Source: Candidatus Gastranaerophilales bacterium | Lineage (GTDB): Bacteria; Cyanobacteriota; Vampirovibrionia; Gastranaerophilales; Gastranaerophilaceae | NCBI GenBank assembly: GCA_947624685.1 | Contig: CANQLJ010000001.1 | Span: 1 to 64,000, forward strand | Direction: 5' to 3' | Length of the DNA stretch: 64,000 nt | Shown here: positions 5,161 through 9,216 of the stretch, piece by piece | Position numbering within the stretch: the stretch's first letter is position 1 | How the letters are laid out: every line of letters begins with the position of its first letter | The notes under the pieces: model-generated | Databases searched by the model: none | Seen by the model: only the letters and a program-made list of their open reading frames with translations | What the model was told of the DNA's origin: nothing | Translations under genes and position numbers: made by a program

Positions 5161-6357
5161 TTATTTTTTTGGCGAAAAATGATTGCTGATAATCTTTTTA
5201 CAAACTTTTATATTTACAAAAGGTTCGATATATTTTTTATAAGCTCCGTGCGTTGCCGTAGGCTTGAACCAACCCAAATAACTTAACATTTGACAAGCAT
5301 CAAACCAAGTAATTCGACCCTTTTGTTTTATTCTCCGAGCTTTTCTTATTGCCCGAATAAATATTTTTCCTCTGATTGTTGTTTTATCCCGATAGAACTT
5401 AAATCCCATAAAATCAATAAAGCGACCTTTTCTTTTGCCGTTTTTATCGATGTAATCAAATCTAAAAATTTGATAATTAGATTTGACTTCCAAATCAAGG
5501 GATTTTAAATATTCCCGAATCAGTTCAAACTGTTTTTTAAGTTCCTTTTTGTTTCTTCCGAAAATAACAATATCATCCATATAGCGAACATAGCATTTCG
5601 CTTTTAAAACTTCTTTTATATAATGGTCGAACGGTTGCAAATACCAATTTGCGAACCATTGAGAAGTATAAAAGCCAATCGGAAGTCCTTGTTTTATAAT
5701 TTCTCCGTTATGCTCGGCGGCGTTTGAATCAATAACGTAATAAACCAAAGCGAGCATTTTTTCGTCGTGAATTAAATTCTTGAATCGTTCTTTCAATAAA
5801 TCCGTGTTTATGGATTGATAAAAATGATGTATGTCGATTTTTAAAACATATTTAATCTCTTTGGGATTGTTTTTAATAAATTTTTCAAGATATTTTTTGC
5901 CGTAATGTATGCCACGCCCCGGAATGGAACCGCAAGAATAAACATACATTCCTTTCATAAATATTTTTTGCAAAGTTTCAACGACGACGTGTTGGCTCCA
6001 TTGTTCGGGGTAAAAATAAGGCTGAATAATAATTCTTTTCTTTAATAAAAAGCCGTCGTTAATTAAAGTCGCTTTATGAACAAGCGGCTTGTAATCTCCT
6101 TTTAAGAGCCATTCTTTAAAAAGTTTTATATATTTATCTTGATTTTCTAAAATTTTTAAAACCGCCGGACGGTTTCTTTTTCCTTTACTTGCACCGTGAA
6201 GCGACGAAATCAAAACTTCGTCGCTTGTAGCAATTTCAAAGAGGTGGTTGTATGATTTCATTTCTCTTACTAAAACCTCACGAACTTTCGATAAACTACT
6301 TGCCCGTGCCTCTTGTTCGGTTAATTTTTGCCGAGCGGCAAGGATAATAAGCCACAT
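5161..6357 (-). CDS. Reverse transcriptase of a diversity-generating retroelement
   Basis: This enzyme copies the template RNA into cDNA with frequent errors opposite adenine; the cDNA then replaces the variable repeat of the fibre gene. The 398-residue ORF shows the RT palm: KIDIHHFY with the first catalytic Asp (residue 175), IGFYTSQ (227-233), which is the DGR-specific form of motif 4 (IGxxxSQ rather than QGxxxSP), and YMDD (259-262). A start at 6261 (MKSYNHLFE) would match the usual N-terminus of DGR enzymes; the first ATG at 6357 has no clear ribosome site. The template repeat lies 25 bases upstream. No avd-like gene is recognisable beside it. Confidence 0.9.
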   Translation of the reverse strand: MWLIILAARQKLTEQEARASSLSKVREVLVREMKSYNHLFEIATSDEVLISSLHGASKGKRNRPAVLKILENQDKYIKLFKEWLLKGDYKPLVHKATLINDGFLLKKRIIIQPYFYPEQWSQHVVVETLQKIFMKGMYVYSCGSIPGRGIHYGKKYLEKFIKNNPKEIKYVLKIDIHHFYQSINTDLLKERFKNLIHDEKMLALVYYVIDSNAAEHNGEIIKQGLPIGFYTSQWFANWYLQPFDHYIKEVLKAKCYVRYMDDIVIFGRNKKELKKQFELIREYLKSLDLEVKSNYQIFRFDYIDKNGKRKGRFIDFMGFKFYRDKTTIRGKIFIRAIRKARRIKQKGRITWFDACQMLSYLGWFKPTATHGAYKKYIEPFVNIKVCKKIISNHFSPKK

Positions 6358-6381
6358 TGTAAGACTTTTATGTTAGTAATA

Positions 6382-6490
6382 GAGCGACACGCCATAGTTC
6401 CAATTCGAGTTAGACACGGCGTTGTTCAAATTCAACGCAAAAGCACCGACACACAAGCCGTCATTCGGATTACTGCCAAAGCGAGCGAAC
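6382..6490 (-). repeat. DGR template repeat (TR), cassette 1
   Basis: Over 109 bp this sequence matches the 3' end of the fibre gene (7066-7174) except at ten positions, and all ten are adenines in this copy on the fibre-coding strand (T on the + strand). Of its 19 adenines, 10 are replaced in the variable copy by C, G or T. That is the hallmark of adenine-specific mutagenic homing, so this copy is the donor. Read in the fibre frame it is rich in AAT and AAC codons (Asn), which can reach many amino acids. It sits directly before the reverse transcriptase. Confidence 0.93.
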
Positions 6491-6519
6491 TCGTGAGTTA
6501 TTATCCGTTTTTAGTAATA

Positions 6520-6628
6520 GAGCGACACGCCATAGTCCCAATTCGAGTTAGACACGGCGTTGTTCAAAGTCAACGCAAAAGCTCCGGCTATCAAGCCGTT
6601 ATTCGGAGAACTGCCAAAGCGAGCGAAC
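6520..6628 (-). repeat. TR/VR-like cassette 2
   Basis: This is a 109-bp copy of the template with no insertion or deletion. It keeps AAT/AAC codons at most diversified positions, so it still looks like a template. It also differs from cassette 1 at non-adenine positions (for example at the codons for Cys-Val in the middle), so it is not a simple mutagenic product of cassette 1. It reads in the fibre frame from FARFG to GVSLYY and a stop. Confidence 0.85.
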
Positions 6629-6657
6629 TTGTGAAATATTACCCTTTTTTAGTAATA

Positions 6658-6766
6658 GAGCGACACGCCATAGTCCCATGCAGACCAAGAAGCCGCATAA
6701 GCCAAAGTCAACAAAAAGGCTCCCGCCGGAAAAGCGACAGACGAAAGACCGCCAAAGCGAGCGAAC
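6658..6766 (-). repeat. VR-like cassette 3
   Basis: A third 109-bp unit, again without indels and in the same frame with the same ends (FARFG ... GVSLYY, stop). The positions that are Asn in the template are here Leu, Ser, Thr, Ala, Tyr, Trp and Ala, and the unit has lost nearly all AAT/AAC codons. It therefore resembles an already diversified variable repeat rather than a template. Confidence 0.85.
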
Positions 6767-6792
6767 TTGTGTTTATTATCTTTTTAGTAATG

Positions 6793-6901
6793 GAGCGACA
6801 CGCCAAAGTTCCAAAGCGATTCACGAACGGAGTCCGCCAAATACAAAACAAAAGCACCGTCCAACAATCCGTCCACGGGACAAGAGCCAAAGCGAGCGAG
6901 T
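6793..6901 (-). repeat. VR-like cassette 4
   Basis: The unit nearest the fibre gene is also 109 bp and in frame, from LARFG to GVSLHY and a stop. Diversified positions read Cys, Val, Tyr, Ala, Asp, Glu and Leu. Conserved scaffold residues (ARFG, GAF, W, GVSL) are kept. It is the most diverged of the four from the template. Confidence 0.85.
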
Positions 6902-7020
6902 CCGTAGTTATTACCCAAATTTTAAATGTACAATGACAAAAGTCATGCATGATAATAACACAAAAAAACTCGCTTTGATTCTTTTAAAAAAATCGCCGAG
7001 AGCCTAACGGCTCTTTTTTC

Positions 7021-7042
7021 TTTGGGGGAGAAATCCCCCAAA
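7021..7042 (-). other. DGR target hairpin after the variable repeat
   Basis: A perfect 9-bp inverted repeat (TTTGGGGGA / TCCCCCAAA) with loop GAAA on the + strand lies a few bases past the fibre stop codon and about 23 bases beyond the variable repeat. Known DGRs carry a 7-10 bp hairpin or cruciform with a GRNA-type four-base loop just downstream of the VR, needed for efficient retrohoming. Position, stem and loop all fit. Confidence 0.8.
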
Positions 7043-7047
7043 CCCCC

Positions 7048-9216
7048 TTAAGAGGGTGTGTAAGAGAGCGACACGCCATAGTACCAATCCGAGTTAGACA
7101 CGGCGTCGCCCAAAGTCAACGCAAAAGCACCGACACACAAGCCGTCAAACGGATAACGGCCAAAGCGAGCGAACATTGTTCCCGAAGCAACCCAAACGCC
7201 GTCGGGAATAAACGTCGAACTTGAACCGCTTGTTTTGTCGGGCAATAATCCCATTCCGCCGACAAGCGAAACTCCGTTAATATATCCGCCCGTTACATTT
7301 GCCAAAGTGATTCCCGAATCAATATAACCTTCGGCGTTTGTTCCGTCGGTATAATCATCTGCAGTCGAACCGTCGGCAGTCCCCGGCGTAAATTTTACAT
7401 ACAATTTTCCGTTTACGGCGATTAAACCTTGAACGATTTTCCAAATATTTCCCCAAGGGTTTTCCCTGTGGAAAACTTTAACGGCTCCGTTGTCTTTGTC
7501 GCCGTGGAATGCTCCTCGGTTAATAAGCTGACCCGTTGCAAGCTGATTGTTTGCATTTGCCGAGCCGCCCGAATATCTGCCCGTGCCGAAAGCCGTTTGA
7601 GTGTCGGTTGATTTTGAAATTAAAAGCAATAAGATTTGTTCCGCCAATATTGCTCTTAATTCGTTTGAATTCCAACCTTTCCCGTTTGCTTTGGCATATT
7701 GAATTTGAGTATTGCCCGCCACGTTTTTGCAAATATTTTGTCCCGAAAGCGAGCGAACAATATTATCAACCAAGCAACCGTCAAACAAGCCGTCAAAATA
7801 AAATTCGGTCGGTTCATTGTCTGTTCCGATATGAGTCCAACATTTATAATCTTGCGATTTTTTCTTGTTTGAAACCCAAAAATGAAATTTGTCGGGTTCG
7901 TATTCTTCGGCTTTTATATAAAAGTCTTTCCATAAACGCATTGCGTTGGCGTTACAATTTACATCGGCAACGTGCGAAGGTTTACCCTCGACCGTTACGG
8001 AATAATCATTCGGATTTAATTCTTCCATAATTTGCCCGTTCAAATTTTTATATTTTGAACCGTCGAAAACTTTGGAATTGTTAATCGTGAATGAACATTC
8101 TTTTAAGTGAATTGTTCCGTTAAAAGGCGTTGCGAGTAAATCAAGTCCGAGCCTTATTGCTTCGTTCCAACCGATATTTGAAACGCTCAACTGTCCCATT
8201 TGTACTTCGTCGCCGTCGTTTGAAGTTAAATAAGCGGTAAGGGTTGAACCTCCTTTATTATAAACAAGCCTTGTTTTATAATGTGTTTCGGCTTGAGCAT
8301 CGCCGCTTGAAGCGATTGTCCCGCCCGTATAAGCATAAGCGGAAGTCGGAACGCTCCATTCGATTTTCTTTGATGTATTTATTATCAACTGCGGCGAATG
8401 AGCGTTTGTCGTTGAATTGCCGTATATGGTTTGTTGTGTTGCGTTTATCGTTGCCCCCGTTGTAAATCCGGCGGCAAGTTCAAAACTTTCTATTTCTTCA
8501 ACATTTTCGGGAATATAATCAATATTTCCGTAAATAGCCGTTGTAAATCCGCTACAATCCCCGTTGTCGGTTAATTTTAACGCCCCTTTTATTTTTAACC
8601 CGATGTCATTTCCCCATTGATTATAAAGCATTACGGGTTTAAATAAATCGAGCAACCAAGAATCCAACCAACCGCCGTAATCAAAACGGTTGTTTTCATA
8701 ATCCATTTTTGCGGGAGCAAAATTTTCGTTTACGCAACCGACGGGGTATGTAATACAACCGTTTACATTCGAGTTTGTACTGTCATATAAAAATTCGTAT
8801 TCGATAGATAAATCGAACTCGTTGGCAGGGTCGAGGTTTACGACTCCGTTTACCGAAACGGGGAACGCTCTGTAAAAATAATCCCCGTCGTCGGGCGGGG
8901 TATCTTTGAAAACTTGTGTATCGTAAAGTTCACGCCTTGTATTTTCAAGAACAACCGTTCCGTCGCTTATTGTTTGAGGATAACTGTCTTTTTTTCTGAC
9001 AATGACCGTCTTTTGCCAAGTACAAAGAACGTGGTCGTTTATAATTGTATCGGTCGGGTCTTTCCATTGTAAAGAAACGCTTTTGTCTTTGTTGTGTTCG
9101 ATTCTTAAGTGAGTACAATTTGAAGGCGGAATCCCTTCGTTGCCCGAATTATATCCGCCTCCGCCTCCGCCGCCCGATGAACCGTAACCCGAGCCGCTGA
9201 AAAATACTTCTCCCAT
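7048..9216 (-). CDS. Tail fibre / receptor-binding protein diversified by the DGR
   Basis: This 722-residue protein is predicted to sit at the tail tip and bind the host surface. It starts with a glycine-rich stretch (residues 8-27), then a fibronectin-like segment, long beta-rich regions, and a C-terminal domain of the type found in DGR variable proteins (C-type lectin-like fold): DGVWVASGTMFARFG, then the variable residues, and YGVSL near the end. Residues encoded by the variable repeat include Arg-Tyr-x-Phe, Thr-x-Gly-Asp, Asp and Tyr, where the template encodes Ser or Asn. A strong AAGGAG site precedes the start. It follows the baseplate genes directly. Confidence 0.9.
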   Translation of the reverse strand: MGEVFFSGSGYGSSGGGGGGGYNSGNEGIPPSNCTHLRIEHNKDKSVSLQWKDPTDTIINDHVLCTWQKTVIVRKKDSYPQTISDGTVVLENTRRELYDTQVFKDTPPDDGDYFYRAFPVSVNGVVNLDPANEFDLSIEYEFLYDSTNSNVNGCITYPVGCVNENFAPAKMDYENNRFDYGGWLDSWLLDLFKPVMLYNQWGNDIGLKIKGALKLTDNGDCSGFTTAIYGNIDYIPENVEEIESFELAAGFTTGATINATQQTIYGNSTTNAHSPQLIINTSKKIEWSVPTSAYAYTGGTIASSGDAQAETHYKTRLVYNKGGSTLTAYLTSNDGDEVQMGQLSVSNIGWNEAIRLGLDLLATPFNGTIHLKECSFTINNSKVFDGSKYKNLNGQIMEELNPNDYSVTVEGKPSHVADVNCNANAMRLWKDFYIKAEEYEPDKFHFWVSNKKKSQDYKCWTHIGTDNEPTEFYFDGLFDGCLVDNIVRSLSGQNICKNVAGNTQIQYAKANGKGWNSNELRAILAEQILLLLISKSTDTQTAFGTGRYSGGSANANNQLATGQLINRGAFHGDKDNGAVKVFHRENPWGNIWKIVQGLIAVNGKLYVKFTPGTADGSTADDYTDGTNAEGYIDSGITLANVTGGYINGVSLVGGMGLLPDKTSGSSSTFIPDGVWVASGTMFARFGRYPFDGLCVGAFALTLGDAVSNSDWYYGVSLSYTPS
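7066..7174 (-). repeat. DGR variable repeat (VR)
   Basis: This is the 109-bp recipient of mutagenic homing at the 3' end of the fibre gene. It aligns without gaps to the template at 6382-6490; the ten mismatches are all at template adenines. The adenine-free 3' segment GGCGTGTCGCTC is identical in both and is the likely initiation end. The stop codon and the hairpin follow within about 45 bases. Confidence 0.93.

Follow-up and report, generated by a model that had tools for sequence, protein, structure and literature searches.

A prophage locus with four template units

The window, a 64,000-nucleotide stretch forming the start of contig C1 in a draft genome of 2.0 Mb (99% complete, 92 contigs) from an uncultured gut bacterium related to cyanobacteria, carries a diversity-generating retroelement (DGR) whose gene neighbours encode a tape measure, baseplate hub, baseplate wedge, tail fibre, tail assembly chaperone and endolysin; hence the element sits in a tailed prophage. 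On the minus strand, the fibre gene (9216-7048) is followed by units 4, 3, 2 and 1, and then by the reverse transcriptase (RT; Table 1). The RT, identified by matches to the RVT_1 and phrog_1423 profiles, lies beside a template repeat (TR) from which the variable repeat (VR) of the fibre gene differs at template adenines. Its nearest named relatives come from Gastranaerophilales and Melainabacteria genomes, and the TR/VR pairs of relatives sharing this RT are adenine-specific.

Table 1. Features of the DGR locus, in window coordinates
Feature	Position	Strand	Basis
Tail fibre/receptor-binding protein, DGR target, 722 aa	7048..9216	-	phrog_5302 tail protein and structure match
Variable repeat (VR), 3' end of fibre gene	7060..7176	-	adenine-only core differences from unit 1
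Two GC-rich hairpins directly after VR, putative homing-type target signal	7021..7057	-	DNA fold z-score -3.75
Leader of unit 4	6904..6916	-	predicted pairing with common spacer -14.0 kcal/mol, equalled by 4% of shuffles
Unit 4, template-type, adenine-depleted	6787..6903	-	13/19 adenines changed, comparison with unit 1
Leader of unit 3, weakest of four	6769..6781	-	-10.7 kcal/mol, equalled by 0.3% of shuffles
Unit 3, template-type, adenine-depleted	6652..6768	-	15/19 adenines changed, comparison with unit 1
Leader of unit 2	6631..6644	-	-16.5 kcal/mol, equalled by 0/300 shuffles
Unit 2, near-intact, adenine-rich, template-type	6514..6630	-	4/19 adenines and 6/88 other sites differ from unit 1
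Leader of unit 1	6493..6506	-	13/14 pairs with spacer strand 6342-6355
Unit 1, template repeat (TR) in use	6376..6492	-	accounts for all VR core differences
Spacer strand of leader:spacer helix, common to four units	6342..6355	-	covariation, 20 loci
RT-18 structured RNA (Rfam RF03021), 5' of RT	6266..6340	-	49.4 bits against gathering score of 41.3
DGR reverse transcriptase, probable true start MKSYNHL	5161..6261	-	RVT_1 E 4e-18; phrog_1423 E 4e-94

A model of the C-terminal 344 aa of the fibre (pLDDT 81) matches TaqVP, the variable protein of the Thermus aquaticus DGR (Foldseek E 8.9e-11; VIA-align Z 25.0, rmsd 3.2, 267 aligned, 14% identity), pointing to a C-type-lectin-like variable domain of the same predicted fold, although the target in the window is a phage tail protein. 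The hairpins that follow the VR are absent after every array unit, and inverted repeats resembling them also follow the VR in relatives. A hairpin in this position is a homing signal in BPP-1 (PMC3240598; also PMC12875486). By analogy, the hairpins and the distinct 3' ends of the VR (CTCTCTTAC) and the units (CTCTATTAC/CTCCATTAC) would constitute the IMH/IMH* pair of a DGR, with hairpin loops (7021-7057) that do not fit the GRNA consensus stated for other phage DGRs.

The RT open reading frame can be extended to 6357, running through the spacer RNA, which falls within the first 32 codons of this longer version; the frame as a gene finder would call it (5161-6357) starts inside that structured RNA. 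In relatives L003, L004, L023 and L002, stops lie upstream of MKSYNHL, where the conserved protein begins, and the RT therefore probably starts at 6261. Avd is a usual, though not universal, component of DGRs, and no Avd-like open reading frame was found on the coding strand between the fibre gene and the RT. Elsewhere in the same genome, on contig C39, locus L065 (310-813 and 856-2025) encodes a second RT of 389 aa, which contains the motifs GNLTSQ and YVDD. Ahead of it is an open reading frame of 167 aa that is Avd-like by eye, and the locus is probably a second DGR, of the avd type.

The array itself is regular. Unit starts are 138, 138 and 135 bp apart, no indels occur inside the units (compared ungapped in a 117-nt register), and a repeat finder returned five copies of a 138-bp unit, four of them the array units and the fifth the end of the fibre gene. 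All four units are open in the frame of the fibre gene, beginning with ARFG and closing with GVSLxY-stop, and the spacers between units resemble each other and not the fibre gene. This organisation, including the make-up of the array from template-type units, had been proposed in the initial annotation, and is confirmed here. The open frames reported there stand as an observation, but are weak proof of function, since mutated AAY codons never yield a stop; the probability of finding no stop is 0.5-0.8 per unit, with a joint probability of 7.5e-4 over 13 units.

The VR differs from unit 1 at 10/19 adenines and at 0/88 other core sites (p=2.6e-9), and has 0 non-adenine mismatches to unit 1, as against 4, 30 and 22 to units 2, 3 and 4 respectively. 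This comparison identifies unit 1 as the donor of the present VR. Relative to unit 1, unit 2 is changed at 4/19 adenines and 6/88 other core sites, unit 3 at 15/19 and 21/88, and unit 4 at 13/19 and 16/88, while AAY codons number eight in unit 1, none in unit 3 and one in unit 4. Unit 2 is marked by ATAGCC instead of TGTGTC, and by GGA instead of GGT. The roles originally assigned to the units, with unit 1 as template, unit 2 as template-like, and units 3 and 4 as diversified, are thus all borne out.

Leaders, spacer strand and the RT-18 RNA

Ahead of each unit is a leader (GGATAATAACTCAC before unit 1) complementary to GTGGCTTATTATCC, a strand at 6342-6355 just 3' of unit 1. The predicted pairing of all four leaders beats that of at least 96% of shuffled leaders, and the equivalent pairing of the stretch before the VR does not. 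Across 20 loci, 93.6% of cells in the helix are standard pairs and 63 cells are doubly changed, and the covariation exceeds 500/500 shuffles and all slid controls, with the proviso that the register was set by hand on the GGG/TCC ends, with four loci lacking a clear register (L032, L035, L053 and L059) excluded, which tilts the sliding control towards the helix. The doubly changed cells are independent of that choice. The leaders are hence, as judged from these alignments, able to pair with the spacer.

Directly beyond the spacer strand lies the RT-18 RNA, where the window spacer scores above the gathering threshold over the full model (1-84). Unlike the window locus, the model contains no leader beyond the template, and the leader:spacer helix falls just outside it. 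Local RNA folding of the whole spacer alone was uninformative (z -0.45). Pairing strength was also considered as the selector of the active unit, and no consistent relation was found. As the units carry leaders and template-type 3' ends, whereas the VR lacks a leader and is followed by a hairpin, template modules rather than copies of the fibre gene make up units 2-4. The initial annotation had included neither this helix nor the use, by relatives, of a unit other than that proximal to the RT.

Arrays, donors and adenine loss among relatives

In the RT clade holding the window (support 100/100), arrays with between two and four units are present at nine of the 17 loci, and L034, one of the remaining eight, is truncated upstream. 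An extra unit is likewise present in another group, made up of L040, L042 and L173. Outside the clade, single templates are the rule, including in named phages of the same RT family, in which arrays were sought and single templates found instead. Butyrivibrio phage Arawn (46% RT identity) and Faecalibacterium phage FP_Epona (36%) share the fibre-TR-RT order and adenine-specific VR differences (9/9 and 13/13 at adenines, respectively), but each has one template, unlike the window array. No description of tandem template arrays was found in the openly available literature searched. On this comparative sequence evidence, the modular array is a real and recurrent variant of the DGR. Further direct repeats, of 100-140 bp, lie upstream of a related DGR in Ruminococcus faecis (L014, 2742-3084); their mismatches fall on both sides, and adenines are not clearly favoured.

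In several relatives, the VR does not correspond to the unit nearest the RT. In L004 and L007/L008, the VR matches the RT-distal unit with 0-1 non-adenine mismatches, compared to 24 for the proximal unit, even though the template adjoining the RT is intact and of a different sequence. The arrays of L007 and L008 are identical and their VRs have changed independently, hence the distal unit wrote at least one of these VRs with the proximal unit in place. In L029 (4457-4573 and 4769-4885), the VR and sole template are of different types, with 16 non-adenine mismatches between them: the VR is of the type of the template in its sister L006, and the template is of the type of the distal unit in L007, within flanks that are otherwise L006-like. 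The template of L029 appears to have changed after its VR was last written. In L005, both non-adenine mismatches between the VR and its template match the extra unit (TTGTTAGTT), although an older common template would also explain them. These comparisons provide moderate support for donor switching in relatives; in the case of units 2-4 of the window phage, the present VR exhibits none.

The extra units fall into two kinds. Those of L004, L007, L023 and L025, with roughly that of L002 and unit 2 of the window, are adenine-rich and have no adenine bias in their differences from the active template. By contrast, window units 3 and 4, and the extra units of L005 and L009, are adenine-depleted with strong bias (p=1.1e-5, 3.5e-5, 9.6e-6 and 1.5e-7, respectively, by Fisher tests that assume independent sites and approximate the parent's adenines by those of the compared template). 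The same tests detect bias between the templates of L003 and L023 (p=3.5e-6): the active template of L003 (4868-4984) has lost 10/20 of the adenines found in that of its close relative L023, and it is from this depleted template that the VR of L003 derives. They also detect it between the orthologous extra units of L042, which is adenine-rich, and L040, which has been hit (5/14 adenines, 4/61 others; p=0.009). Six close template pairs served as a control, with 2/130 adenines and 22/512 other sites changed; as these exhibited no adenine bias, such loss is not the normal drift of templates. Furthermore, 28/38 core adenines are changed in units 3 and 4 combined, compared to 0/8 terminal adenines (p=1.7e-4), and 0/12 terminal adenines are changed in three other hit units, which is the pattern expected if mutated cDNA were written into the unit.

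The parent of units 3 and 4 was not unit 1 itself, given their 21 and 16 non-adenine differences from it, changes with little synonymous excess (8:11 and 3:10). Nor do they appear to be copies of the present VR, with which they share adenine outcomes at 4/10 and 4/8 sites, about the level of chance. We infer with strong support that spare templates have been mutated by the element's own adenine mutagenesis; recombination of an older VR sequence into a template unit, instead of cDNA homing, would produce this pattern equally well. Of the three roles suggested for the array in the initial annotation, mutagenic homing into template copies is the best supported.

These observations can be set against BPP-1 (mtd-avd-TR-brt), with which the window element shares an RT adjoining the template, a spacer RNA separating TR from RT, VR differences specific to adenines, a receptor-binding gene that carries the VR at its 3' end and encodes a C-type-lectin-like fold, a hairpin after the VR, and differing TR and VR 3' ends. 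Unlike BPP-1, it has four tandem templates rather than one, and no avd at the locus. The TR of BPP-1 is described as unchanged (PMC3240598), whereas here two units, and the active template of one relative, appear adenine-mutated.

Origin and function of the array

Collapse or concatenation of variants during assembly, an alternative raised alongside the original description, might be suspected in a draft of 92 contigs, but is barely credible given that the units are regularly spaced, have distinct leaders and differ from one another at about 9-38% of core sites, and that arrays are present in at least ten other independent records. Another of the roles originally suggested, in which each unit is the template for a different target gene or VR, has a precedent in reported DGRs that combine several VRs with more than one TR: the available part of PMC6642488 describes a Stenotrophomonas DGR with two TRs and six VRs, similar to the window in having more than one template and dissimilar in its several VRs, and does not, in that part, describe a tandem array with one common spacer and one target. 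Yet a profile search of the whole 2.0-Mb genome (99% complete) found the fibre end encoded at five places, the fibre gene and the four units, with no second VR either there or in the other array-bearing genomes, leaving one VR per element; the 3'-end pattern also occurs at five places in the genome, all at this DGR locus. Within these searches the array has no second target in the genome, making this role very unlikely.

The remaining suggestion, an archive of older variable repeats, would have units 2-4 holding old variants that ordinary recombination, with no involvement of the RT, transfers to the VR, as with the silent cassettes of pilin and vlsE. Some relatives have features that would suit it. 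Besides the two mismatches in the L005 VR, there is an exact 281-bp tandem duplication in L173 (reverse-complement coordinates 512-1073), in which a VR-type unit with its hairpin lies captured behind the extra unit's leader, the two copies differing at nine sites, all inside the unit; such a structure, seen here on a draft contig, is what unequal crossing-over between constant unit ends would be expected to yield. Yet, unlike L173, the window array holds no captured VR copy. Its VR is not a mosaic of silent copies, containing no tract from units 2-4; the units have template leaders and template 3' ends; and adenine outcomes are shared with the VR at chance. An archive is consequently an improbable description of this locus.

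A more serious challenge comes from the proposal that the extra units are non-adaptive relics, in which unequal crossing-over duplicated the unit, unit 1 remained in use, and the functionless spares decayed, in part through self-mutation. The window VR derives from unit 1 only, units 3 and 4 show weak protein-level constraint, the leader of unit 3 is degrading, and L173 indicates that unequal crossing-over between VR and units occurs. However, decay does not fit with the intact, adenine-rich extra units of L004, L007, L023 and L025, nor with the orthologous extra units of L003 and L023, which exhibit only four synonymous changes at sites that are adenine in neither, and whose leaders keep full pairing through different sequences. 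It is also at odds with the distal unit being the donor in L004 and L007. Relic status for units 2-4 of the window phage is a real possibility, albeit short of probable, and as it differs from the explanation we prefer in function alone, the likelihoods attached to the two are not exclusive.

That preferred explanation, which we regard as probable on the sequence comparisons above, is that the array holds both alternative templates and retired ones, all for one target, and that the element itself has mutated some of them. The prophage DGR would combine a single RT and a single target gene with four template modules in tandem. Each module would comprise a leader, a template repeat of 117 nt whose 3' end is of the template type, and a stop, and all four would be served by the one spacer RNA (RT-18) beside the RT. 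Units 3 and 4 would be templates retired from use that received, by homing, adenine-mutated cDNA of the element itself, spare copies being open to this, we propose, because no selection protects their adenines. With moderate confidence, the extra units may act as alternative donors for the same target, with unit 2 the nearest reserve donor in the window phage: recombination across the constant unit ends could change the scaffold written into the fibre, and pairing of the spacer with another leader could likewise do so. A bolder version, which we consider doubtful, holds that the array is a working template library, in which the scaffold class of the receptor-binding tip is switched according to the module feeding the single RT. 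Either leader:spacer pairing or recombination across the common unit ends would determine the choice of module, and mutated sequence would be written back into the templates, such that these evolve by the target's own mutagenesis.

Whether or not the arrays matter, the leader:spacer helix offers a testable handle on how the DGR RNA marks its template. A DGR is usually understood as having one unchanging template, and one or more changing targets; the element in the window instead has four units, two of which are adenine-depleted. The arrays suggest that the template side is not fully protected from the element's own mutagenesis, and that donors can be exchanged among several templates for the same target. 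Through such exchange, a phage would be able to abandon its scaffold for a different one, beyond varying 10-20 residues of it.
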